Shown: piece after piece, positions 4,612 to 15,838 of the stretch
Layout: the number at the start of each line of letters is the position of its first letter
Numbering within the stretch: position 1 is the stretch's first letter
DNA from: Stenomitos frigidus ULC18
GTDB taxonomy: Bacteria; Cyanobacteriota; Cyanobacteriia; Leptolyngbyales; Leptolyngbyaceae
NCBI RefSeq assembly: GCF_003003795.1
Contig: NZ_PVWK01000034.1
Coordinates: forward strand, 1-54,646
Reading direction: 5' to 3'
DNA: 54,646 nucleotides
Notes under the pieces: model-generated
What the model was told of the DNA's origin: nothing
The model's database searches: none
The model's input: only the letters and a program-made list of their open reading frames with translations
Program-made: the position numbers and the translations under genes

Positions 4612-6882
4612 TCAAGTCGTTTTCGACTTCTTTGGGGCAGTTGTCCTACCAGGGGATTTGGTACTGGTAGCCTTGCTCCTACCAGCAGGCTTCGTTGCAC
4701 TGCCAGCAAGCTTTTCGGTCATCGGTTCAGCTTCCAATTTGAAGCTCCAGAACCCACCCTTTTTACTTTGGAAGTAGACCGAAAGCTCCTTCTTTTGCGG
4801 GTCTTTGCCACAGTCGCCAGAGCAACGCAGCATGAGCTTGCTGGCACCCTCTTTGCTATAGGCAAACTCTTCTAGGGGCTTGCCACAACACTGGCAGACG
4901 AACGTTGTGAGCTTGCCTGGAGTCTTCGGCACACCGCTCGACTCACCCTTTTGCAGCCACTTAGCAGCCTTGTCATTCCAGAACATGACCAGATCGGCAC
5001 AGGTCATGCATTTGAGGAAGAAGGGTTTGGAACTAAAGGTTTGAGCCTTGCGGTACGGCACCTGACTGAGCGGCTGGCTGCAACCGGGACAGGAGACATC
5101 AGACTTCGCATATGCCCTCGGTTGCTCCACGGCATCAATATCAATGCCAGCCTTGAGCAGCGCCGGACGAAAGAATTTGAAATCAAAGGCGATCAGGTAT
5201 TGCTCCCATTCCTTCTCCCCTGCCGCAATGAGATCCAAATCGGTTTCCATCTTGGCGGTAAACTTGCTGTCAATCACTGCCGGGAAGACTTTAGCGAGGA
5301 TATCAGTTGTCTTCATCCCCAAAGATGTAGGCACCATCGACTTTTTCTGAAAAGTGACGTATTCCCGGTCTTTCAACGTTTTGATGATGTTGGCAAACGT
5401 ACTGGGTCGTCCAATCCCCAACCTTTCGAGGGTTTGCACTAACGAAGGCTCCGTAAACCGACCAGGGGGACTGGTCTTTTTCGCTTCGTGCCACACCTTC
5501 TGCACTGTCAAGGCTTGACCCTCTTGCACTGCCGGGAGTTGAGTGTCACCGCCCAGGTCAGAGAGGATTGTGGTGTAACCAGGTGCTTTGAGGATCGAGC
5601 CACGCGCTTCCCAAAACGTTGTACCCGACTGAATCACGATCCGGCTTTTGTCCAGTTGAGCAGGCGCACACTGAGAGGCAACCGCTCGCTGCCAGATCAA
5701 GGTATACAGCTTCAATTGGTCGTCGGAAAGAAAGGACTGCATCGCCTCTGGCGTAAACTTCACTTCCACCGGACGGATCGCTTCGTGGGCACCCTGAGAG
5801 CCTTCTTTTGCCTTGTGCTTGGTCGTTTTAGTCGGCACCAAAGCGGGATGTTGCTCACTCAACCAGTGGCGCACCTCCTCACAAAATTCAGGTGATAGGT
5901 CAACCGAGTCCGTCCGGTGATAGGTGATCGCACCATGCCGGGAACCATCGGGCAATGGCACCCCTTCAAATAACTCCTGAGCAAGGCTCATCGAGCGATC
6001 GCTACTAAACCCATACTTCACCCCTGCTGCCTGCTGGAGTGCTGAAGTAGTGAGTGCTGGTGGCGGTGCTTTCTGCGTGTTGCGACTGGTGCACTCGGTA
6101 ATCCGGTGGGGGTTGGCACAAGCAATACCCACCAGTCGATCGGCTTCGGCTAAACTCGTCACCCGTTGCCGAGCTTCCGACGCTCCTGACTCTGCCGGAT
6201 CAGCCGCATCATCAACGGCAGCGCTCTCCGCTTCGACTTCAGCGATCGCTTCCGAACCCAAATAGGAAGCGGTAAACCCCTCACCATACCGCGCACTCAG
6301 CGACCAGTAGGGCACAGGCTTAAAGTTTTCAATCTGCCGTTCACGCGCCACCAACAGTTGCAAAGCTGCCGACTGCACTCGTCCAGCCGACTTACCACCA
6401 CCACCGTTTTGCACAATGCGCGATAGCTTGAACCCGACTCGCTTATCGAGACATTGCCGGGACCGCTGCGCGTTGATCAATGCCATATCCAGTTGCCGAG
6501 GATTAGCGATCGCAGCTTTGACGGCTGCTTCCGTAATCTGGGTGTAGGTCACACGATGGATGGGTTTTTTCCCACAGATTTGCTGTTGAAGGTGCCACGC
6601 GATCGCCTCACCTTCCCGGTCGGGGTCAGTGGCTAACCAAATGCTGTCCGCTCGACTGGCTAACCCCTTAAGCTTTTTGATCACGCTCTCACCACGTTCC
6701 CCATTGGCAACGTAGCGACACACCACACTTTTCTCTGTAATTTCAAACCCCAAGTTCTCGTTGCCATCACTGGCAAGCGTCGTAATATGCCCGACGCTGG
6801 CAGCAACTTCCCAATCAGCACCGAGAAACCCTTTAATCGACTTCACCTTGTTCGGTGACTCAACAATGAGTAATTTAGACAT
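4612..6882 (-). CDS. topA: type IA DNA topoisomerase (TopA-like), plasmid-borne
   Basis: 756 residues. The Toprim domain shows LLIVESPNK (Glu8) and ATDPDREGEAI (Asp86, Asp88). The active-site tyrosine is Tyr321 in ITYHRTDSVDLSP, preceded by the conserved PPPALTTSALQQ. QTLERLGIGRPSTFANI follows, as in TopA. The C-terminus carries two cysteine-rich modules, CPGC..CMTC and CQCCG..CSGDCG, that probably bind zinc, then a basic tail (SKATSTKSPGRTTAPKKSKTT). The enzyme relaxes negative supercoils. An additional topA on a large plasmid is common next to conjugation or replication genes. It is followed in the same direction by the unknown 336-residue protein. Confidence 0.93.
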   Translation of the reverse strand: MSKLLIVESPNKVKSIKGFLGADWEVAASVGHITTLASDGNENLGFEITEKSVVCRYVANGERGESVIKKLKGLASRADSIWLATDPDREGEAIAWHLQQQICGKKPIHRVTYTQITEAAVKAAIANPRQLDMALINAQRSRQCLDKRVGFKLSRIVQNGGGGKSAGRVQSAALQLLVARERQIENFKPVPYWSLSARYGEGFTASYLGSEAIAEVEAESAAVDDAADPAESGASEARQRVTSLAEADRLVGIACANPHRITECTSRNTQKAPPPALTTSALQQAAGVKYGFSSDRSMSLAQELFEGVPLPDGSRHGAITYHRTDSVDLSPEFCEEVRHWLSEQHPALVPTKTTKHKAKEGSQGAHEAIRPVEVKFTPEAMQSFLSDDQLKLYTLIWQRAVASQCAPAQLDKSRIVIQSGTTFWEARGSILKAPGYTTILSDLGGDTQLPAVQEGQALTVQKVWHEAKKTSPPGRFTEPSLVQTLERLGIGRPSTFANIIKTLKDREYVTFQKKSMVPTSLGMKTTDILAKVFPAVIDSKFTAKMETDLDLIAAGEKEWEQYLIAFDFKFFRPALLKAGIDIDAVEQPRAYAKSDVSCPGCSQPLSQVPYRKAQTFSSKPFFLKCMTCADLVMFWNDKAAKWLQKGESSGVPKTPGKLTTFVCQCCGKPLEEFAYSKEGASKLMLRCSGDCGKDPQKKELSVYFQSKKGGFWSFKLEAEPMTEKLAGSATKPAGRSKATSTKSPGRTTAPKKSKTT

Positions 6883-7131
6883 GATCTTTTCCAGTTTGTG
6901 TGCATGAATAACTGGAGAGGGGGCGACTCCGATTGAATTGACTTGAAACCTTTGCTGTAAGCCGTTTGGCGCTTACTTTATTCCTTTTAGTCTTCCCACC
7001 TGGAGGGCTTAAACTCGTGTGTGGGATTGCTTCACCGTGGCTTTACCGCTGTGCCAGCTCTTCTGGATCGTATTGATAAATAAGCTTTGCCATGACTGTC
7101 AACCAGTGAAAAATTTTACAGTGGACATGAA
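6883..7131. other. intergenic region between the giant gene and topA
   Basis: About 250 bases without a gene. A loose third copy of the CACTG/CAGTG repeat lies at 7104-7124, just past the giant gene's stop. The stretch could hold a topA promoter, but no clear -10/-35 pair or factor-independent terminator is visible. Confidence 0.4.
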
Positions 7132-10100
7132 CTAACGGGCATTTGCGACTTTTTGCGTCTGCGCGTGTTTTTGGAGCACAGCACTGAAAGCCTTGAAGGT
7201 CTGGTGATCCAGGTTGGTCACGGCTGAATTTTCGTGGTCTACCTTGCCTTTCACAATAGACAGAATCGTTTGATTCCGACTCTTATCAAACACCACCAAA
7301 GTTTGCGTTTTACGGTCTTCAGAGAGCCGAAAACGTCCCTTCTCACCACGATCGAAGACAACCTGACCACCAGGTTCCCGCTTACCGACTGACCGTAGAA
7401 TCTGCACACTCATTGCCGCTACCTCTAGATTGCGGACTTGCGTTTGATCACGAGTCATCGCTTTCACCGCCGCCTCTGAGAGCGTAAATTCAGCATGGCT
7501 GAAAGTTACATCCCGTTCGGCAATCGGCTTGAACACTTCATCGCTATTTCTGAGCAAGTCATCACTCAGAGTGCGAATCCGATCGAGATAGGCACGATCA
7601 CGCCCCAGATCTTTCGCATTGACCAGCCAATCCCGCATTTCACCCAGAGAAGGACTATAACGATCGCTCTTGGCTGGAGCTTGCCGCATCACGTTCACTG
7701 TCTCCGGATCATGCTGCTCCATCAACTGCTGTGTGACCAACAGCGCGGGTAGGGGCTGCTCCACGGTTGGCTGTAAAGGCTGGACTGCAACGATCAGCGC
7801 TGACTCCACTGCTTGAGATTCAACCGCTGGCTCCACAACAACAGCGATCGGCTCTGGTGTCGCCTGCACAGGTTCAACGGCTTCAGCTTCCACTATGGGG
7901 ATGACTGGCGCTTGTGAAACTGCTAACTCATCGGTAAACAGCACGTTATAACCAGCCGCCTCCAAGCGTGGCACCACAACAGACAGATCTTCTTTGGGAA
8001 AGCCTGCCATCGGCACACAGAGATGGGCTGTCTCTGGTGTAGTGGCTCTAGTGGTAAGACTTGCACCAATCACATCAGCCACGATCGCCGCATCTTCAAA
8101 AAATCCTTCATAGAAAGACCCAATCGGCTTCAGCAAGAGGCTATCGGGATGTTGATCCTTAAAGGACAAATACTCTTGCAGTTCGGGAGAAAGTAGCGTC
8201 CGATCCACTAATTGCGAGTTGGTAAACTCAGGCTGTAGCTGCTGGCGACCAAAAGAGAACTGTTCGGCAACCCGTTTGGCATCCGCTTGCAGACTGGAAA
8301 CAGGCTCAACTGCCTCAACGGTCGGCACTGGTACCGCTTCGACCAGTGGCGCAATCGCCTCAACCTCAGCCTGAATCGCCTCCACTGTGGGCACAGGTTC
8401 CAGTGCTTCATTACCCCTCAGCCTGTTTTGTGTCGGCGTATCGTAGGTAAGGTAGTCCAACGCAAAATGGGTCTGAGTCTCACCCTTTTCACCCGATCGC
8501 TTCTCCCAGGACTTGAGATAACTTGTCTCCGCTGTCAGTGCCAACTGCCCCGACGTGATCGCCTCTCTCACCGCACTGGTATAAGTAGGTAAGTAAAAGC
8601 TGTTAACAGAGTTTTGAGCATAGCCCTCTTCTAGAAGGGCAATCTCTGCCTGACAGAGTGACTGGATCTCTGCCTGAGACTGAAGTGGCTGCAACGCCTC
8701 CACAAAATGTTCAATCAGTTGTTGCCGCTCTGCCTTCGTCAACTTCGTGCGATCGCCATTCACAATCCGCTCACGATAGGTTGCAACCAGATCGTCACGG
8801 GACGGTTTTGATTCCTTTTCGGTATCAAATTGACTTATTTCTGATACCGGAATTGTATTAATTTGGTTTCTTTCTGGTATCGGAACAGTATCGATCTGAT
8901 TCATGGCTGGTGCCACTTCAGGCACTTGAACACCACCGTCTTGAACCTGTACAACCGCTGGCACTGGAGACTCGCCAACCGCTTGCTCTGCGATCGCGGC
9001 AACAACCGCATCCACATCCACCTCAAGGTCAAGGTCTGGGGCAATTGCTGCCTCTGCAACTGTTTCGACTACAGGCTGTACGAGGGCAGCTTCAGCCTCC
9101 ACAGCTTCAATCACTGCATCCACATCAAGCTCGTCCTCTACTGCCACAGGCTCAGCTTCCACAGCTTCAGCTTCCACAGCTTCAATCACTGCATCCACAT
9201 CAAGCTCGTCCTCTACTGCCACAGGCTCAGCTTCCGCTGCCACGGCTACAGCTTCAGGCTGAATGACAGCAAGTAGCGCATAGGGCACTTCACTATCAAG
9301 CCAGTCTTGCAGATAGGCGGTCCCGCTTTTGGGTGCAAAGGCAGAGTTACCCTTAATGTCCGTGCCCACTAGCAGCAGTGTGTTATCGGGCTGAATCTGG
9401 AAGCGAAGCGACAGGGCATCAACCCCAACGCCATCGGCTAGAGACTGCTCAAATTGCAGCGTTTCACCCGTCCTGGAAACAACGAGCGGGTGTCTGCCCT
9501 TCGGGGTTTCAAACTCTAGGCGAAAATCCGACCCAAAGGATATCGCTGGGTCTGCCTTTTCATTGACCATTGCCAAAAATTGAGCGACCTTATCTGCCGT
9601 CTCTTCAGCCGCGTTCGCGTTGACTTGAGCCATGAAGCTTTCTGGACTGATAGCCTCTAGTCCTAACTCACGAATCGACGCATCACCTCGAACAACGCTG
9701 TATGTCTCCGTGGAGCCTAAAGCAGCGTCAAGTGCAAAATCAGCCGCCTCATCACGGCTCTCAAACTCACCGATCGCCTGTTCTTCCGCCCAAAGCAGTA
9801 GATAGTAAGCGTCAATGTTCTCCGCCGCTACTGCCACAGGTGACGGTTGCGCTTCAGCTCCAAGAGCTTCAATCACTGCATCGACATCAATCTCTTCCTC
9901 TACTGCCACCGCATCAAGGCTGGCTGCTTCTACTGCTGCCTGTTCTACGGCTTGCTGTTGCAACACGGCTGCTAGGCGCTGTGGATAGCCTTCGTCAATC
10001 CAGTCAGAAAGCGGTACAATCGCCACCCCAGGCGCATACTGCCGACTGCCATTGATAAAGGTAGCCGTCAAGTTGATGCCATCATCCAGCATTCTGAACT

Positions 10101-13100
10101 GAAGGGCGATCGAGTCACCCACACCAGCCGTTTGCTCCAGTGTCAGCACCCCATCGGTCAGGAAGGCTGACAGCGACACGCCATCACTAGCAGCCGGGAT
10201 GACCACCGCAAAATTGGGCTGATCAACCAGGTTGGCTAGATCAATGCCACTTGCCGCAAAGAACTGTTGACCGAACTGTTGACCCAACGTGTCCGCGATC
10301 TTCTGTTCATAGTCAGCAGCCGTCAAACCAGAGGATGTAGTCACCGGAAGCTCAGTTCCAAGAGGCGTTGCAATTGTAAGCTGCTCAGCCGCAGGGATAG
10401 TTTGCCCTTCCGGTGTCACAGACGGCAAATCGAACATCCGTTGTAAATTCTTCGCCGCAACCACCGGATCACCCACCTCAATCGGTGGAGCCATCGACGC
10501 TAACATCTCATCCGTCAGCGCTTCCAGCTTGGGAATTTCCACGCCTAAGAACTGTCGAGCACCTTCCAATTCGCTGTAGGCACTGAGTCCAATGCCTTGC
10601 TGATAGAGCGCGTTCATCACGTCCGCTGCCCGCTCTGCGCTGACCGTCATCGCCATCTGATTGCCCATCGAGTAGAACTCATTTTGAGCCGCTTCCAGCA
10701 CGATCGGGTTGTTGTAGTAGCGTCCACCTGTGTCCTTCGGTCTGGGTGTCGTGAGTACCAAATCGCCATTGCTGTAGCGCATCACGGTCATGTTCTGATC
10801 AGCCGTTTTGAGTTCATGCCGTGACGCGATCGATAGGAAGGCTAGAGCCTGTGAAGCCGATGGCATTTTGACGGGTGCTTTAGCCAACTCTTTCTCAATT
10901 TCAAAGCCTTTCCGCATCAGCAACCCCTGACGGACATTGCCCTGATAGTCCTTGTAATTGACCAGCTTCCCTTTGAAGTTAGAGAACGCACGAATGACAT
11001 TACCCGTGAAGATCTGTCGTTTCTCGCGTGAGGCGTTCTGCCGCAAGTCAAAGGTGGTGTAAATGTCATTGCCGCTGTAGTCGGCAGCCTGCGCTTCCAC
11101 GCGGATCGCGCCTCTGCTACTGGTATTAACCTTGGTGAAGGGCACCGTAATTTGACGCGCACCATCAGCTACCTGGATCTGGAGCCGCCAGTTGCCCGGA
11201 GTCGCAGGGTTGCCTTTGCCTTCTGACTTATCAACGACTTTCTGCACCACCCCGTAGTAGATCGTGCCGTCCTTCCCCACCACACGCACTGTTTTACCGA
11301 TTTCAAAGTCCTGAAGAAGCTGACGAATAGCGCTGTACTGCCGTTTAATCTTGTCGTCAAACTTTGAGATCCGGGCTGCAATGTTGGCTTCCGTTTTCGC
11401 CTTGCTCTCCAGTTGCTCAGGGGTCAACGCCTCACCCTCTGCCACTGCGTAGGCTTTTAGCCCTGTCTCCTGACGCGCCACATAGCGACGGCGATAGTCA
11501 TTCGTCCGCTCGGAGAAGCTACGAATCGTGGCGACCCGCCGCGCTTCGGCTGCATCTGCCAGCGCATTGAAGTCATGGTCATCCACAGAAGCGACAGGCT
11601 CTAACTCCAACTCAGACCGGATCAGATTCACGACTGCCAACTGCGGTAGGGGCATTCGGGGTGATTTACAATCCACCACATCCAGATAAACCGCACCCGC
11701 AAACGGTGAACTGTTGCCTTCGATCGCTGGGAGCAAATCCATCCGAGCCAGAGGCTTGGCATCCAGATCGAGCGTTTCGGCTTCCAGGATGGATTGCCCC
11801 ATCGCCTGCTCACGCTCTACCAGGTCGTTATAATCCCGCTCAATCAGGGCATACAGCTTCTCTTGTTCAGCCACAGGGAGAGATGGAATCCGTCCCGTGA
11901 CTTTGCGGATCGCGCCTTCTGCCTCCATTTGTTCAACATCAGAGTCTTCAGTCAAGCCGTCGATCGGGGAACCCAGGCGCATGTGCAACTCTGGGTTGTT
12001 GCCCATGATTTCCAGTACCACCTGATCGCCGTACTCATTCATGAAATCGGTGACACCATCCATCTCGAAATTACTGTCACGCGAGGCTGTCGTGTTGGCA
12101 TTGAGCGATGCCATTTTCTTCATCAGGATGGCAGTCGGACGCTTTTCGGCTGGCACGTCACCAGTGAGGATGGTATAGCGCGGCTGTACCACCTGTCCGG
12201 TACGATTGACCCGCCCCAAGGTTTGCATGAAGGTATCAATGTTTAGCTCTGGCTGCGCGACGATCAACCGTCTGGGACGTTGATCCGCCACTTTTTCAGA
12301 GGCATGAAGACTAATACCTGTGGAGCCAGAACGGTTGAGAATCAAGACATCCAGCTTGCCATCGTTAAAGCCATTGATCGATTGAATATCCTTAAATTCA
12401 GACTTACTACGCTTCTGATACGTCTGAGTGCCATCGGCTTCGTACTGAATGCAGTCCGTGCGACCCGTGATTTCATCAACAACCACTCCTTCCTGCTGCA
12501 ACCGCTGTTCAATATAGTCGATCGGTGAAACAGGCAGACCACTCCAGTCCATGTCTGCAATCATCTCCATCGTCTCGTCATACAGCGTGACGGCATCATA
12601 ACCAAGCTCTCCATTGGTGAGCTGTCGTCGTTCCGTGGTGCCAAACGCATCCTTAGTTCGCACATCCCGCGAGCGCTCCAGGTATTTCCGCATCAGGTCG
12701 CCAAACGAGATATCGATCGCGTCCCCAACTTGCAAATTCTGGTCGTCGGCTGTATCGCCAATAAAGCTACCCATCGTATTGGAGAGGGCAAGGACAGGCT
12801 TTTCACCATTACGGACACTTTCTAATGCCTCCTGCACCGATGCTTCTGCCTTGATGGACAACAGCGATTGACCAATGACGTTGTGCATCAAGCTGGAAAA
12901 GTTAGTCGATTCTGCGCCCGCACCGCCTACAGAGGAGTCACCCGCAAGCCGCTTAGCATCATTTCTGATGTCTTTCTTCAAGGTTTTAACCGCCGACTGC
13001 TTGAGTTCATCAAACTCCAAGATCCGGCTCATCACGGATGCCAGATTGTCTGCCATCTGGTGCTCTACGGGTGCCACCTTCACCTTGAACTCAATGCCAT

Positions 13101-15585
13101 CAAACGAGCGTTCCCGACGAATGTATTGCCCGGACTCCGCAAGCTTGGCAGCAATCATCTGTTGGAGCGGTACACCGCCCTCTTCAATCATCTCCGTCAG
13201 CGATTTAGCACTGTTCTCATCCTGCGCGAACCGCATTCCTGTCTTGCTGGCATACAAGCCCATGACATGTGGATTCTTCGCATAGGTCGCTGACGAAAAA
13301 ATCACCCCACCCGCTGCCTTAGCCACCAACGAACGAGTGAAATCCGATCGATCCAGCGGACCCGCTGACCCAAATCCCTTTGCCGACCCACCCGCATTGT
13401 GGCTTTCATCCAGCACCAACATGCAGCGCCCAGCCGCCCAGGACAGAAACTCACGCCGGGGCGTGTCTTCACCTTTCACGGTCTGCAACTGGCTGTAGGT
13501 CGTAAAAATAATGTCCACATCTTTGAGGTCATTACCCGCCATTAGCTCTTTGAGCTTGTCTGACTGGTTCGCACCCGTTCGTACAATATCGCCGTTAGGC
13601 AACAGAATCTTGGCGCTATTGGCAGTGGGCAGAATGTTGTAGTGTGCGCCCAGATCAGTCAAATCCCGCACGATATCTGCTAGAAGTTTCGGCTTCTCCG
13701 TGCAAAAAATGACGGGATACCCCCGCTCTCTGGCGTACTTGATGGCACCAGCCAGCTGAAAACCTTTACCAATCCCGGTTTGATCGCCCAGGATAAAACC
13801 CTCACCTTTTTCCAGGTTGGCAATCCCCAGCGCAATCCCATCGACCTGTTCCGCCATGAACTGCTGAGGCATGTCTTCGGGCTTGATCCGCAGGCGATCG
13901 TACACATAATCATCCAACGAACCATACTGCGCTTCGAGACGTTTGAGCGCACTGGTGACAGACGTTTGCATATTGACAGGTAGGAGCGTTCCACCTGGTT
14001 TTGCTCGGCTCACAGCCTGATACGCAACTTGTTTCGCTTGTGGTCTTTCGTCTGCCATGCTGATAACCCTATCCTTCGGTGGTGTTTCAAAAGTTGTGAA
14101 TGGTGTTTGTCGCTCTAGTCCGTCCGGCTCAGGTCTACCATCAGATCCAGCCAAGCGCTCAGCGTCGTGGTTTGAATCACGTCCTGTACCTGCGCCACTT
14201 GCTCCAGTTCGCTGGTCGTCGGACTCGGAAAGTTGAAGAGGTAATCCTTCGCGTCTAAGGGCTTCACTGCTTGCAATGCCTCCTGGAACTCCAGGTTGTG
14301 CAGTGTCATTGCTTCTGCCCATGCCGTCGATCCCGGCAACTCGTCCGGCTCCAACCCCGCTGTCTGTGGGAGTTGAATCGCGTCCAGTTGTGCCCGTCGC
14401 ACGGCGTTCCGCATCAGCTCCCAGGCTGCTTCCTGACTCTCTTCTTGCAGAATCAGCCAGTCCACTCGCAGCAGCAGCAGGTTCATGTAATGCTGCCAGC
14501 GTTGGATCGACTTCAGATCGTTCGGCACCAGGATCGCGGCTACCTGCATCGTCGCGCTGTCCTCGGTCGCTGGTTGCCACACGGTTTGGGTTGCGAGGTA
14601 AAGAGACATTGGGTACTAACTCCTTTAAAGTTTCATAGGATGAGTAAACTTGGGGCAATTCAGCAGCAGGAAGCCGTCTTGAGGACTTACCCCGACCGTC
14701 AACGACAATTACATCAACGGGATAGCTCGTACCCTGACGGGCATACAAGTTGCCCGTCAGGGTGAAGTGCTGCGTCACGTTGTAGTTGTCGTACAAGCTT
14801 TTATAAAACGCGACATATTGCCCTCCGTTGTAGGTCGTAGCGGCTGCTTCCTGATTGCCAGTCTTTTGACCCATCGGAGCACCCAACACCAGCACTGCCC
14901 GTCCCTCGTCCTTCAACGACTGAAGGGAATGCAGCGCGATCGCGTGGTCAATATTGGTGGTTCTGTACGCCGGAGTTGCAGCCCCACCCCGTACCAGCCA
15001 CTCTTTTGAAACACCACCGATACTCACCGCACCAAAAGGCGGATTCATGACGATGACATCCACTGGTTGCTTCGGTTTATAAGACGACGCATCCTGCTCC
15101 GTCACCTGAAAACCCTGCGCTCTTAAATCAGCCGCACGGACTGGATCAATTTCATTGACGATCGCTGTCTCTCGATTCGCCTCGACCAGCAAGGCACCAT
15201 GCCCACCCGTAGGCTCATAGACCACTGACTCAGGCGTAATGCCAGCTAATGCCGACACCAGATAACCCAACGGCACCGGGGTACTGTACGCCTGGTTCTG
15301 AATGCTGGTAGACGAACGAGTCGAGAGGTTGGGTTGACGTTCGTACAAGTCCACTAGCCGCTCGTAGGCTTGTCCTGGTGTTTCTGCTGTGTCCACCAGC
15401 AGACGGGCAGTACGCACCAAACTCGCCTCAATGGTTTCCTCGGTTGCCTTTGCTTCCTTTGTGCCCCGCTCCACCGTGGCACCAAGCAGTTCAGACGCAT
15501 AGCTTCGCGCCTCCACGATCGAGTTGAAACGCCCACCCTTGAGGAAGTAGTCAGAAAAAGCATCAATCAGGGCAGCATTCGACAT
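7132..15585 (-). CDS. giant N6-methyltransferase / strawberry-notch helicase / MutS-I protein
   Basis: 2817 residues, taking the ATG at 15585 that follows the upstream gene's TAA by one base (a GTG at 15594 is possible). Domains in order: an N6-adenine methyltransferase (about 100-325) with EPTGGHGAL and the catalytic NPPFG near 181; a low-complexity Arg/Gly/Ser/Asp linker (about 330-495); an SF2 helicase of strawberry-notch type with GDQTGIGKG near 600, DESH near 726 and QTLGRVNRTGQ near 1120; a long coiled or beta region with two related copies of a 110-residue domain (about 1755-1875 and 1995-2110); acidic Ala/Val repeats with DVDAVIEA; a MutS domain I-like segment (about 2460-2555) with PIGSFYEGF and CVPMAGF; and a C-terminal small domain. 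Methyltransferase-helicase giants are known on phages and plasmids, for example the DarB type, where they protect incoming DNA from restriction. That role is inferred here. Confidence 0.85.
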   Translation of the reverse strand: MSNAALIDAFSDYFLKGGRFNSIVEARSYASELLGATVERGTKEAKATEETIEASLVRTARLLVDTAETPGQAYERLVDLYERQPNLSTRSSTSIQNQAYSTPVPLGYLVSALAGITPESVVYEPTGGHGALLVEANRETAIVNEIDPVRAADLRAQGFQVTEQDASSYKPKQPVDVIVMNPPFGAVSIGGVSKEWLVRGGAATPAYRTTNIDHAIALHSLQSLKDEGRAVLVLGAPMGQKTGNQEAAATTYNGGQYVAFYKSLYDNYNVTQHFTLTGNLYARQGTSYPVDVIVVDGRGKSSRRLPAAELPQVYSSYETLKELVPNVSLPRNPNRVATSDRGQRDDAGSRDPGAERSEVDPTLAALHEPAAAASGLADSARRESGSSLGADAERRATGTTGRDSTPTDSGVGAGRVAGIDGMGRSNDTAQPGVPGGIASSEALRREGLPLQLSESDDQRTGASGAGTGRDSNHDAERLAGSDGRPEPDGLERQTPFTTFETPPKDRVISMADERPQAKQVAYQAVSRAKPGGTLLPVNMQTSVTSALKRLEAQYGSLDDYVYDRLRIKPEDMPQQFMAEQVDGIALGIANLEKGEGFILGDQTGIGKGFQLAGAIKYARERGYPVIFCTEKPKLLADIVRDLTDLGAHYNILPTANSAKILLPNGDIVRTGANQSDKLKELMAGNDLKDVDIIFTTYSQLQTVKGEDTPRREFLSWAAGRCMLVLDESHNAGGSAKGFGSAGPLDRSDFTRSLVAKAAGGVIFSSATYAKNPHVMGLYASKTGMRFAQDENSAKSLTEMIEEGGVPLQQMIAAKLAESGQYIRRERSFDGIEFKVKVAPVEHQMADNLASVMSRILEFDELKQSAVKTLKKDIRNDAKRLAGDSSVGGAGAESTNFSSLMHNVIGQSLLSIKAEASVQEALESVRNGEKPVLALSNTMGSFIGDTADDQNLQVGDAIDISFGDLMRKYLERSRDVRTKDAFGTTERRQLTNGELGYDAVTLYDETMEMIADMDWSGLPVSPIDYIEQRLQQEGVVVDEITGRTDCIQYEADGTQTYQKRSKSEFKDIQSINGFNDGKLDVLILNRSGSTGISLHASEKVADQRPRRLIVAQPELNIDTFMQTLGRVNRTGQVVQPRYTILTGDVPAEKRPTAILMKKMASLNANTTASRDSNFEMDGVTDFMNEYGDQVVLEIMGNNPELHMRLGSPIDGLTEDSDVEQMEAEGAIRKVTGRIPSLPVAEQEKLYALIERDYNDLVEREQAMGQSILEAETLDLDAKPLARMDLLPAIEGNSSPFAGAVYLDVVDCKSPRMPLPQLAVVNLIRSELELEPVASVDDHDFNALADAAEARRVATIRSFSERTNDYRRRYVARQETGLKAYAVAEGEALTPEQLESKAKTEANIAARISKFDDKIKRQYSAIRQLLQDFEIGKTVRVVGKDGTIYYGVVQKVVDKSEGKGNPATPGNWRLQIQVADGARQITVPFTKVNTSSRGAIRVEAQAADYSGNDIYTTFDLRQNASREKRQIFTGNVIRAFSNFKGKLVNYKDYQGNVRQGLLMRKGFEIEKELAKAPVKMPSASQALAFLSIASRHELKTADQNMTVMRYSNGDLVLTTPRPKDTGGRYYNNPIVLEAAQNEFYSMGNQMAMTVSAERAADVMNALYQQGIGLSAYSELEGARQFLGVEIPKLEALTDEMLASMAPPIEVGDPVVAAKNLQRMFDLPSVTPEGQTIPAAEQLTIATPLGTELPVTTSSGLTAADYEQKIADTLGQQFGQQFFAASGIDLANLVDQPNFAVVIPAASDGVSLSAFLTDGVLTLEQTAGVGDSIALQFRMLDDGINLTATFINGSRQYAPGVAIVPLSDWIDEGYPQRLAAVLQQQAVEQAAVEAASLDAVAVEEEIDVDAVIEALGAEAQPSPVAVAAENIDAYYLLLWAEEQAIGEFESRDEAADFALDAALGSTETYSVVRGDASIRELGLEAISPESFMAQVNANAAEETADKVAQFLAMVNEKADPAISFGSDFRLEFETPKGRHPLVVSRTGETLQFEQSLADGVGVDALSLRFQIQPDNTLLLVGTDIKGNSAFAPKSGTAYLQDWLDSEVPYALLAVIQPEAVAVAAEAEPVAVEDELDVDAVIEAVEAEAVEAEPVAVEDELDVDAVIEAVEAEAALVQPVVETVAEAAIAPDLDLEVDVDAVVAAIAEQAVGESPVPAVVQVQDGGVQVPEVAPAMNQIDTVPIPERNQINTIPVSEISQFDTEKESKPSRDDLVATYRERIVNGDRTKLTKAERQQLIEHFVEALQPLQSQAEIQSLCQAEIALLEEGYAQNSVNSFYLPTYTSAVREAITSGQLALTAETSYLKSWEKRSGEKGETQTHFALDYLTYDTPTQNRLRGNEALEPVPTVEAIQAEVEAIAPLVEAVPVPTVEAVEPVSSLQADAKRVAEQFSFGRQQLQPEFTNSQLVDRTLLSPELQEYLSFKDQHPDSLLLKPIGSFYEGFFEDAAIVADVIGASLTTRATTPETAHLCVPMAGFPKEDLSVVVPRLEAAGYNVLFTDELAVSQAPVIPIVEAEAVEPVQATPEPIAVVVEPAVESQAVESALIVAVQPLQPTVEQPLPALLVTQQLMEQHDPETVNVMRQAPAKSDRYSPSLGEMRDWLVNAKDLGRDRAYLDRIRTLSDDLLRNSDEVFKPIAERDVTFSHAEFTLSEAAVKAMTRDQTQVRNLEVAAMSVQILRSVGKREPGGQVVFDRGEKGRFRLSEDRKTQTLVVFDKSRNQTILSIVKGKVDHENSAVTNLDHQTFKAFSAVLQKHAQTQKVANAR
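9098..9232. repeat. tandem 72-nt repeat coding acidic DVDAVIEA units
   Basis: Two nearly identical copies, 9098-9160 and 9170-9232, lie in the giant gene and encode VEDELDVDAVIEAVEAEA twice. More diverged relatives lie at about 8995-9030 (DVDAVVAAIAEQ) and 9860-9915 (IDVDAVIEALGAEA). The units sit in a flexible acidic linker and probably expand or contract by slippage. Confidence 0.8.
14115..14609 (-). CDS. 164-residue gene nested in another frame of the giant gene
   Basis: The frame starts with ATG at 14607-14609. An AAGGAG Shine-Dalgarno sequence lies about 10 bases upstream, within the giant gene's own codons. It ends at TAG 14115-14117. It is on the same strand as the giant gene, shifted by +1. 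Its product looks like a real folded helical protein: QVAAILVPNDL, YMNLLLLRVDWLILQEES, AWELMRNAVRRAQLDAIQ, TLHNLEFQEALQAV, LSAWLDLMVDL. Codon use is ordinary (many CTG, GAG, GAC, CAG). By contrast, the giant frame over exactly this stretch is a low-complexity Arg/Gly/Ser/Asp linker, as expected of an overprinted shadow. I do not recognise the family. This could instead be the sole ancestral gene of the interval. Confidence 0.65.
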   Translation of the reverse strand: MSLYLATQTVWQPATEDSATMQVAAILVPNDLKSIQRWQHYMNLLLLRVDWLILQEESQEAAWELMRNAVRRAQLDAIQLPQTAGLEPDELPGSTAWAEAMTLHNLEFQEALQAVKPLDAKDYLFNFPSPTTSELEQVAQVQDVIQTTTLSAWLDLMVDLSRTD

Positions 15586-15586
15586 T

Positions 15587-15838
15587 TTATGCACCCACTG
15601 CTTGCGCTTGAGGCACTACTTCTGTGATCACCAGCGACTCAAACCGCAGACGAATTTGATTCACTTCAACCACACCATCCCGCAGGGCATAGACAAGCTG
15701 GTCATCCCAACAGATTTCCAGCAAGCTGGGGGACTTAGACACCATCACCCCATACACGACTCCATCGACAATCCGCACAACTTCGCGTCCATCGTGGCGG
15801 ATTGATACTACTCTCGGTTCGACAAATTTAGTTTCCAT
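15587..15838 (-). CDS. small hypothetical protein upstream of the giant gene
   Basis: 83 residues from the ATG at 15838; a TTG nine bases earlier is possible. It is a beta-rich small domain: PRVVSIRHDGREVVRIVDGVVYGVMV, LLEICWDDQLVYALRDGVVEVNQIRLRF, VITEVVP. There is no membrane segment or recognised motif. Its TAA is followed one base later by the giant gene's ATG, so the two are translationally coupled and probably work together. It may be a subunit or chaperone of the giant protein, but that is a guess. Confidence 0.6.
   Translation of the reverse strand: METKFVEPRVVSIRHDGREVVRIVDGVVYGVMVSKSPSLLEICWDDQLVYALRDGVVEVNQIRLRFESLVITEVVPQAQAVGA

Follow-up and report, generated by a model that had tools for sequence, protein, structure and literature searches.

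DarB of phage P1 is the archetype of the DNA methylase-helicase dyad of polyvalent proteins. In this dyad, found in phages and plasmids, an adenine methyltransferase is fused C-terminally to a SWI2/SNF2-type helicase, strawberry-notch (SNO) variants included, and the role proposed for it is the protection of incoming DNA (PMC5512222). Among same-strand overlaps of bacterial genes, a one-base shift (phase 1) is reported as the commoner phase for long overlaps (PMC2542354). Overprinted genes have also been described in E. coli, where the relevant passages present them as recent in origin or antisense (PMC4683798, PMC9927249).

The window analysed here is a stretch of 54,646 nt from the cyanobacterium Stenomitos frigidus ULC18. 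In prokaryotes, long genes embedded in other genes are as a rule passed over during annotation, and few have been proven. The window contains a candidate of this type, for which dozens of comparable loci make dual coding open to measurement as well as to argument.

The locus and its predicted products

The features of the locus are the following.

7132..15594, minus strand: giant ORF of 2820 aa with methyltransferase, linker, SNO helicase and a long C-terminal part (ORF call; Pfam N6_Mtase, AAA_34, Helicase_C_4)
14605..15594, minus strand: methyltransferase part of the giant ORF, aa 1-330 (tblastn alignments to relatives; bounds picked for searches)
14620..14625, minus strand: AAGGAG Shine-Dalgarno (SD) of the small gene, doubling as Lys-Glu codons of the giant ORF
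14115..14609, minus strand: small gene of 164 codons with ATG start, in the +1 frame relative to the giant ORF (homologues; structure model)
14116..14607, minus strand: giant-frame linker overlapping the small gene (composition; pLDDT 55.5, predicted disordered)
14056..14058, minus strand: in-frame ATG just past the small-gene stop, a possible, weakly indicated start of a separate helicase
11695..14034, minus strand: SNO helicase part of the giant ORF, aa 521-1300 (Pfam, relatives; bounds picked for searches)

The methyltransferase was recognised by the Pfam model N6_Mtase (E 5.6e-5, 23 bits, cut-off 20.4), and its NPPF motif is visible in the translation. The strawberry-notch helicase lies in the same polypeptide (AAA_34, E 1.5e-24; Helicase_C_4, E 4.7e-29). 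In the wide sense, the giant ORF is thus like a DarB-type dyad, with methyltransferase and SNO helicase in one chain. It differs in that no gene lying between the domains is mentioned where the dyad is described (PMC5512222). By eye, with the domain borders unmapped, no comparable +1 ORF was evident in P1 darB.

The small gene lies wholly within the giant ORF, on the same strand and in another frame, and is therefore an embedded overlap; its ATG follows the AAGGAG at a spacing of 10 nt. The preliminary description had proposed a complete 164-codon gene with this ribosome site in the +1 frame of a giant methyltransferase-helicase gene, and the ORF coordinates, the homologues and the fold model bear this out. 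The pair shares its strand and one-base shift with phase-1 overlaps as treated in PMC2542354; here, however, the small gene is embedded along its whole length of about 490 nt, its product has a predicted fold of its own, and many genera retain the overlap. Like the E. coli cases, as far as these are outlined in PMC4683798 and PMC9927249, the small gene adds to a known gene a further protein, read in another frame and overlooked by annotation; unlike them, it shares the strand of the gene that contains it and has numerous homologues, free-standing ones among them.

Structure modelling predicts that the small protein folds (pLDDT 93.6, pTM 0.89). Searches of Pfam, PHROGs, NCBIfam, PADLOC and PDB sequences gave no family match at the curated cut-off or at E 0.001. 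For the window protein, the weak matches comprised Gag_p24 (E 0.81) and phrog_6055 (E 0.018); others were the antitoxin ParD for the free homologue L122 (E 0.001, 19.9 bits, below the cut-off of 27.3), NF006464 for the free homologue L120 (E 0.0095) and a TetR chain in the PDB for A4 (E 0.05). The structure 3jsr (All0216) was considered as a relative and dropped, as its E of 0.52 with A1 was followed by absence with A4; alignment A1 has no conserved stretch. Fold searches found nothing at E 0.001 in the PDB (27 matches at E<=10, best 3.0) or in BFVD (26 matches at E<=10, best 1.1), and the best VIA Z was 2.1, with 185 chains aligned. The small protein used alone to scan genome contigs gave no match. 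With tblastn in plasmids it gave two matches, one of them relevant (E 0.02), which is convincing only because of its place in a homologous gene.

Conservation of the arrangement and selection on both frames

A helicase-first survey of 388 cyanobacterial genomes located 65 helicase N-termini by the helicase alone. At most two candidates were scored per genome and only places starting at query residue 1-4 were counted, so that the 65 are not exhaustive. Upstream of one (L133) the contig ends after 101 bases, and six helicase pieces (L141-L145, L147) were set aside. The small gene lies directly upstream in all 64 assessable cases, embedded in the +1 frame in 62 and free in 2.

Small-gene homologues occupy the same place and frame in 64 loci that have the domains on either side, L030 and L032 having been removed before counting for lack of a small-gene match, and L002 and L037 (weak, own-genome match) having been set aside. 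Methyltransferase and helicase stand in one open frame, with no stop between them, in 60 of these 64 loci, and in 63 no interruption of the giant frame falls within the small gene. The exception, L105, has an indel inside; in L089, L094 and L121 the frame is open over the small gene and broken elsewhere. The 60 loci with both frames open come from 45 genomes, as counted from their places, and no assembly frameshift is needed to account for them. The small gene is real and conserved. Seven named records of cyanobacterial plasmids with the overlap were examined; six nevertheless leave the small gene unannotated, while the seventh annotates it and omits the methyltransferase region. In Picosynechococcus PCC 7002, the small ORF of plasmid pAQ6 is L129 4578-5084 (NC_010480.1, 101013-100507, minus strand); a six-frame search of spectra from this strain, with its plasmids included, is described in PMC3364912.

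The ribosome site is conserved as well. An SD of at least 6 nt precedes 46 of 60 small-gene starts, against 5 of 1298 internal ATGs, and the spacing to the ATG is mostly 10 nt. Where Lys-Glu occurs at the SD site, it is written AAGGAG in 44 of 50 loci; elsewhere this spelling is used in 57 of 212 cases. These features argue against the reading that programmed +1 frameshifting out of the methyltransferase is the sole way into the small frame, yielding a methyltransferase-small-protein fusion and no free protein. The small frame is indeed +1 and starts about where methyltransferase homology stops, but in the window a stop codon stands three codons ahead of the ATG, and free homologues exist, which makes frameshifting very improbable.

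Both frames are under selection. Differences between relatives were highest at small-gene codon position 3 in all 20 pairs compared (361/265/737 by position over 3018 codons), which indicates protein selection on the small frame. At fourfold sites, pooled over 17 pairs after omission of the three most diverged, divergence was 0.211 in the small gene, 0.394 in the methyltransferase and 0.387 in the helicase; the small gene had the lower value in every one of the 17 pairs when set against the helicase, and in 15 of them when set against the methyltransferase. This lowered divergence implies that the giant frame constrains the sequence too. Together, a giant frame uninterrupted over the small gene in 63 of 64 loci and a rate of change at this gene's fourfold sites about half that of the flanks indicate that both frames are used. 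Of the two frames the small one is the more strongly conserved; conservation is not confined to the giant frame. In 52 of 60 loci the small frame matches the codon use of the flanking domains better than the giant frame does, in line with the normal codon use attributed earlier to the small gene.

Read in the giant frame, the linker DNA is rich in Arg, Gly, Ser and Asp and nearly devoid of Trp (pooled over 36 loci, including the window), and the model of the linker reached a pTM of 0.15 at the low pLDDT listed above. The earlier view of this stretch as a wrong-frame-like linker agrees with these data, which support a giant linker behaving as a disordered by-product frame.

The openness of the frames was compared with chance by synonymous resampling. 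With the giant linker amino acids of the window fixed, an equally long +1 frame stayed open in 19% of resamplings; an open +1 frame alone is thus weak evidence, and the openness in the window by itself was rejected as an argument. With the small protein fixed instead, the giant frame stayed open in 0.25% of resamplings in the window and, across loci, in 0.2% of trials on average. The arrangement lies far above chance because it is conserved in other genomes. A chance open frame or an assembly error, which the 19% figure might suggest for the window, is hardly conceivable, and for the cyanobacterial set it is already refuted by conservation in 60 loci, the substitution phase, the SD and the confident predicted fold. 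In overlapped small genes, T-ending codons stand before AA, AG or GA codons in 0 of 2180 cases (418.6 expected), compared with 60 of 235 and 43 of 161 in two sums of free copies, into which the similar loci L124 and L125 enter separately. This count is not separate evidence, being the same fact as the openness of the giant frame in loci chosen for openness.

It could also be supposed that no fusion is made: an operon would then give methyltransferase, small protein and helicase as separate proteins, and the giant frame would be open by accident. In 57 of 60 related loci an in-frame ATG is found close to the stop of the small gene (about 30 expected), with an SD core in only 13, and a Gloeobacter record annotates the helicase start at this ATG. 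The single stop-free frame of methyltransferase and helicase in most loci and the rarity of open giant frames on resampling nevertheless render this reading improbable. A separate helicase may perhaps be made in addition to the giant.

Association with the helicase and origin of the overlap

The most probable interpretation, in which confidence is considerable, is a dual-coding stretch that yields the giant enzyme and an internally initiated small protein, the latter a putative accessory subunit of the helicase part. Ribosomes starting at the giant's own start would read the methyltransferase, then the unstructured linker, then the SNO helicase. Others would start internally, at the AAGGAG-ATG where the methyltransferase region ends, producing the 164-residue helical protein of the +1 frame. 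As the exact sequence of the linker would matter little, its DNA would be free to encode the small protein. Both proteins would then be made, and in step.

A separate function of the small protein, e.g., in counter-defence or regulation, is a less likely alternative, in which the gene is real and translated but only carried along within the gene for the enzyme. For six free homologues (L033, L110, L114, L118, L120, L122), no methyltransferase or helicase domain lies within 3 kb on the same strand, suggesting that the small protein can serve without them; in addition, no significant family or fold match points to a role, and the sub-threshold match of L122 is to ParD. Against this stands the link with the helicase, seen at every assessable helicase N-terminus. 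Free copies directly before the helicase occur in L124, L125 and L138-L140, and in L124 and L125 the small gene keeps this place although the methyltransferase is downstream of the helicase. It also stays with the helicase where the methyltransferase has diverged: in three pairs from one genus (g92), identity is 0.91-0.92 for the small protein, 0.94-0.96 for the helicase and only 0.63-0.65 for the methyltransferase. Another pair (L082/L091) runs counter to this link: the values are 0.64, 0.88 and 0.67, respectively, so that the small protein has diverged more than the helicase and about as far as the methyltransferase.

The homologues outside the overlap, namely these six and the five copies before the helicase, led to rejection of the idea that the small gene is a young overprinted orphan. 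It had been suggested that the small gene once lay between separate methyltransferase and helicase genes that were fused by read-through, but the helicase tree and the gene order lend this no support. In the tree, L125 and L138-L140 form one clade nested in a larger one, in which all other members have either the overlap or, at the corresponding place, a +1 ORF. It is thus the free gene that looks like the derived state.

Viral and proteobacterial loci

Methyltransferase-SNO fusions also occur in proteobacteria and their mobile elements. No recognisable small gene was found by profile search in those of Pseudomonas and Vogesella, or by eye in those of a Cupriavidus plasmid and an Acinetobacter phage. 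Fusions without it in these four suggest that the enzyme as such does not need the small gene everywhere. The linkers are short in Pseudomonas (295 nt), Vogesella (118 nt) and Cupriavidus (325 nt), and not short in the Acinetobacter phage (433 nt). Two candidates were discarded: a +1 open frame of 186 codons in Pseudomonas (L131), without a profile match and by eye resembling a wrong-frame reading, and a +1 ORF with an SD at the right place in Thalassospira (L126), with a profile probability of 3.7 and a chance openness of 0.57.

Bacteroides phage BS-TP4 and viral relatives have a selected +1 ORF at the corresponding place. Between L150 and L162, differences by codon position in this ORF are 26/10/43 over 121 codons, a clear coding phase; in the methyltransferase they are 44/29/161 over 310 codons. 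Among seven viral pairs, which share members, five gave clear numbers with position 3 highest and two had too few changes; in L155/L163 position 3 was highest only just (59/37/63). In a profile comparison of the BS-TP4-group ORF with the cyanobacterial small protein, the probability was 0.3, so that homology is not supported.

An unrecognised third subunit may be common to the methyltransferase-SNO enzymes of cyanobacterial plasmids, Bacteroides phages and other viruses, coded in the alternative frame of the linker. This broader proposal is tentative. Under it, the overlap would be ancient, lineages with free copies would have escaped it, and coding within the interdomain linker would let enzyme and subunit be inherited together. 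The small gene points to a missing component in a class of mobile-element enzymes.

A match to the family profile was obtained for one further locus, L170 (probability 89.4, E 2e-6), whose open frame by itself would be expected by chance at 0.885. Homology is not claimed for L164, L169 and L171, where the chance values for an open frame are 0.52-0.81; for L166 and L167 these are 0.18 and 0.09. L164 and L168 have a longer open stretch in frame +2 than in frame +1.

The embedded gene and its occurrence in cyanobacteria

The preliminary description of this contig of Stenomitos frigidus ULC18 placed a complete small gene inside a giant methyltransferase-helicase gene. Such a reading frame is present on the same strand, with AAGGAG ten bases upstream of its ATG:

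7132-15594, minus strand: giant ORF of 2820 codons, which includes N6-adenine methyltransferase and strawberry-notch helicase parts
14115-14609, minus strand: small gene, an ATG-initiated ORF of 164 codons between the methyltransferase and helicase parts, in the +1 frame of the giant

A search of the same genome yielded no other good copy, the next match having E 0.08. Against plasmids, the small protein gave one relevant weak tblastn match (25% identity, E 0.02), located within the homologous giant gene of a Chroococcidiopsis plasmid, and among 194 genomes searched, other genera showed clear matches (best 1.6e-22). A first set comprised 13 loci with both flanking domains, including the window and the Chroococcidiopsis locus. 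All 13 have a +1 ORF at the same position and a giant frame open across the linker, the giant-frame reading of the same DNA; in L025 and L027 the giant frame is broken farther upstream. The small-gene products can be aligned as one family. In L025, about 2 kb with ORFs that look transposase-like by eye (5640-7650) splits the methyltransferase, apparently as two insertion sequences.

The profile of these 13 sequences matched 54 of 388 cyanobacterial genomes (E <= 0.01), and the regions fetched for most of the matching places provided 73 loci for analysis. Homologues of the nested product searched by itself exist, the small gene being found in 71 of the 73. It lies in the +1 frame of a preceding methyltransferase, with the helicase after it, in 64 of these 71, among them L105, where the frame changes at an indel inside the small gene. 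Both domains share one open frame in 60 of the 64; the breaks in the giant frame of L089, L094 and L121 lie outside the small gene.

Selection of loci by the small gene itself was avoided by searching the 388 genomes with the helicase part, which matched 57 of them and gave 65 places starting at the helicase N-terminus. The 13-sequence profile matches at most 300 nt upstream in 58 of the 65. Among the remaining seven, L134 carries the small gene in the +1 frame (E 5.7e-17), and L135-L137 have a +1 ORF of 180-182 codons upstream of the helicase, that of L137 reaching a probability of 91.6 against the family profile and those of L135 and L136, neither scored alone, resembling it. L138 and L139 have a free small gene, not embedded in a giant ORF, upstream of the helicase (E about 5e-6 against a 60-sequence profile; probability 89.6 in profile comparison for L138). 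With L133 left out because its contig ends too early, the small gene is upstream in 64 of 64 assessable places, embedded in 62 and free in two.

Conservation and constraint in the two frames

Twenty non-overlapping pairs were drawn from the 60 loci with one open frame. The third codon position of the small gene, which is the first position of the giant frame, has the most differences in every pair; the counts for positions 1, 2 and 3 are 361, 265 and 737 (3018 codons, 20 pairs). In the methyltransferase and helicase on either side, it is the third position of the giant frame that varies most. Because the differences peak at position 3 of the small gene, unlike in the flanks, the protein conserved across the overlap is, judging from codon positions, the small one.

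The AlphaFold2 model of the small protein, built from 41 sequences (five free copies, the rest embedded), is helical with a few short strands (pLDDT 93.6, pTM 0.89), as its helical pattern had suggested. For the linker, the giant-frame product of this DNA, a model from 36 sequences gave pLDDT 55.5 and pTM 0.15. Pooled over 36 loci, the linker contains R 0.11, G 0.11, S 0.12, D 0.09 and W 0.002, and the small protein L 0.13 and W 0.043; by codon use, the small frame is the better fit in 52 of 60 loci. The initial impressions of normal codon use in the nested gene and of an Arg/Gly/Ser/Asp-rich, wrong-frame-like linker are borne out by these values. Models, amino-acid make-up and codon use together suggest that the giant's linker is a by-product frame. 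Family and fold searches found no significant match for the small protein, the nearest family match being a sub-threshold one to ParD for the free homologue L122.

Given the small protein and the codon usage of each locus, resampling on the 60 open loci left the giant frame open in 0.2% of cases on average (highest locus value 4.6%; window 0.25%). Even so, 63 of 64 loci keep the giant frame open over the small gene. Fourfold sites were compared in 17 of the 20 pairs, leaving out the three most diverged. Differences amount to 234/1109 (0.211) in the small gene, 1822/4703 (0.387) in the helicase and 948/2408 (0.394) in the methyltransferase, the last figure being inflated by three pairs with a strongly diverged methyltransferase and the helicase figure being unaffected. 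Divergence in the small gene is below that of the helicase in 17/17 pairs and below that of the methyltransferase in 15/17. Amino-acid identity is 0.863 in the small frame versus 0.744 in the linker. In the pairs L070/L075, L073/L081 and L071/L072, methyltransferase identity is only 0.63-0.65, with small protein and helicase above 0.9; the methyltransferase may have been exchanged there as a module.

Translation signals and free copies

At the best start candidate, the Shine-Dalgarno (SD) match is at least 6 nt long in 46 of 60 loci and at least 4 nt long in 56, the choice of the best start per locus favouring the small-gene site somewhat. Among 1298 ATGs inside helicase parts, the corresponding numbers are 5 and 242. 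The small-gene SD is also read as Lys-Glu codons of the giant, and Lys-Glu is found there in 50 of 60 loci. It is coded AAGGAG in 44 of these 50, as against 57 of 212 such pairs elsewhere in the same domains (Fisher p 1e-15, uncorrected for shared ancestry). In the record of Gloeobacter plasmid pGMOR1 (L130, 3998-9862), the small gene is annotated (WP_230844304.1), the helicase starts at its stop and the open methyltransferase region is unannotated; this annotation is a forced choice between overlapping frames.

A Leptolyngbya boryana plasmid (L125) carries the small gene as a free, annotated gene (BAY59332.1) immediately preceding that of the helicase, and the methyltransferase comes only after the helicase; L124 has the same arrangement. 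A free copy also precedes the helicase in L138-L140, and where the L139 stretch ends, its helicase ORF continues, by eye, into methyltransferase-start-like sequence. A helicase tree was built with 41 rows. L125 and L138-L140 group in it as a single clade (100/100), nested in a clade of 33 rows (100/100); the remaining 29 rows of the larger clade have +1 ORFs at the corresponding position, six of them (L126, L164, L166, L167, L169, L171) labelled by position only. This tree, the root of which is arbitrary, makes a free gene next to the helicase look like the derived state. In six more loci (L033, L110, L114, L118, L120 and L122) the free copy has other surroundings, neither domain occurring within 3 kb on the same strand; in L110 and L114 its neighbours resemble, by eye, a Dps-like gene and ATP synthase genes.

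Loci outside cyanobacteria and possible function

Viral scans with the helicase gave 17 loci, some near-identical. In all 17 the giant frame is open, and close to the end of the methyltransferase the +1 frame is free of stops for 97 codons or more (stop to stop). Chance alone would be expected to give such an open frame in L164, L169, L170 and L171 (0.52-0.89); eight other viral loci tested gave chance values of 0.01-0.18. L170 matches the small-protein family profile, and in a Bacteroides phage and its relatives the coding phase of the +1 ORF is visible in pairs. No recognisable small gene was found in a Pseudomonas, a Vogesella and a Cupriavidus plasmid or in an Acinetobacter phage. In Persicobacter, methyltransferase and helicase are two adjoining genes with no gene between them.

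Since the small gene constantly sits before the helicase, and stays with it even when the methyltransferase is diverged or located elsewhere, we infer that the small protein may be a partner of the helicase part. The role proposed for the methyltransferase-helicase enzyme class is modification or protection of incoming DNA (PMC5512222). Among the matches listed from open-licence PMC papers, no description of the overlap was found; the one listed paper to combine strawberry notch with cyanobacteria, PMC5512222, does not contain the word 'overlap' in its main text.

The long C-terminal part of the giant matches MutS domain I (aa 2470-2557, PF01624, E 3.3e-13), an unusual location for a mismatch-recognition domain. 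Elsewhere on the contig (19511-25355, minus strand), an nSTAND-WD40 protein adjoins a protein with SIR2-like and CHAT domains, a pair that looks like a defence cluster.
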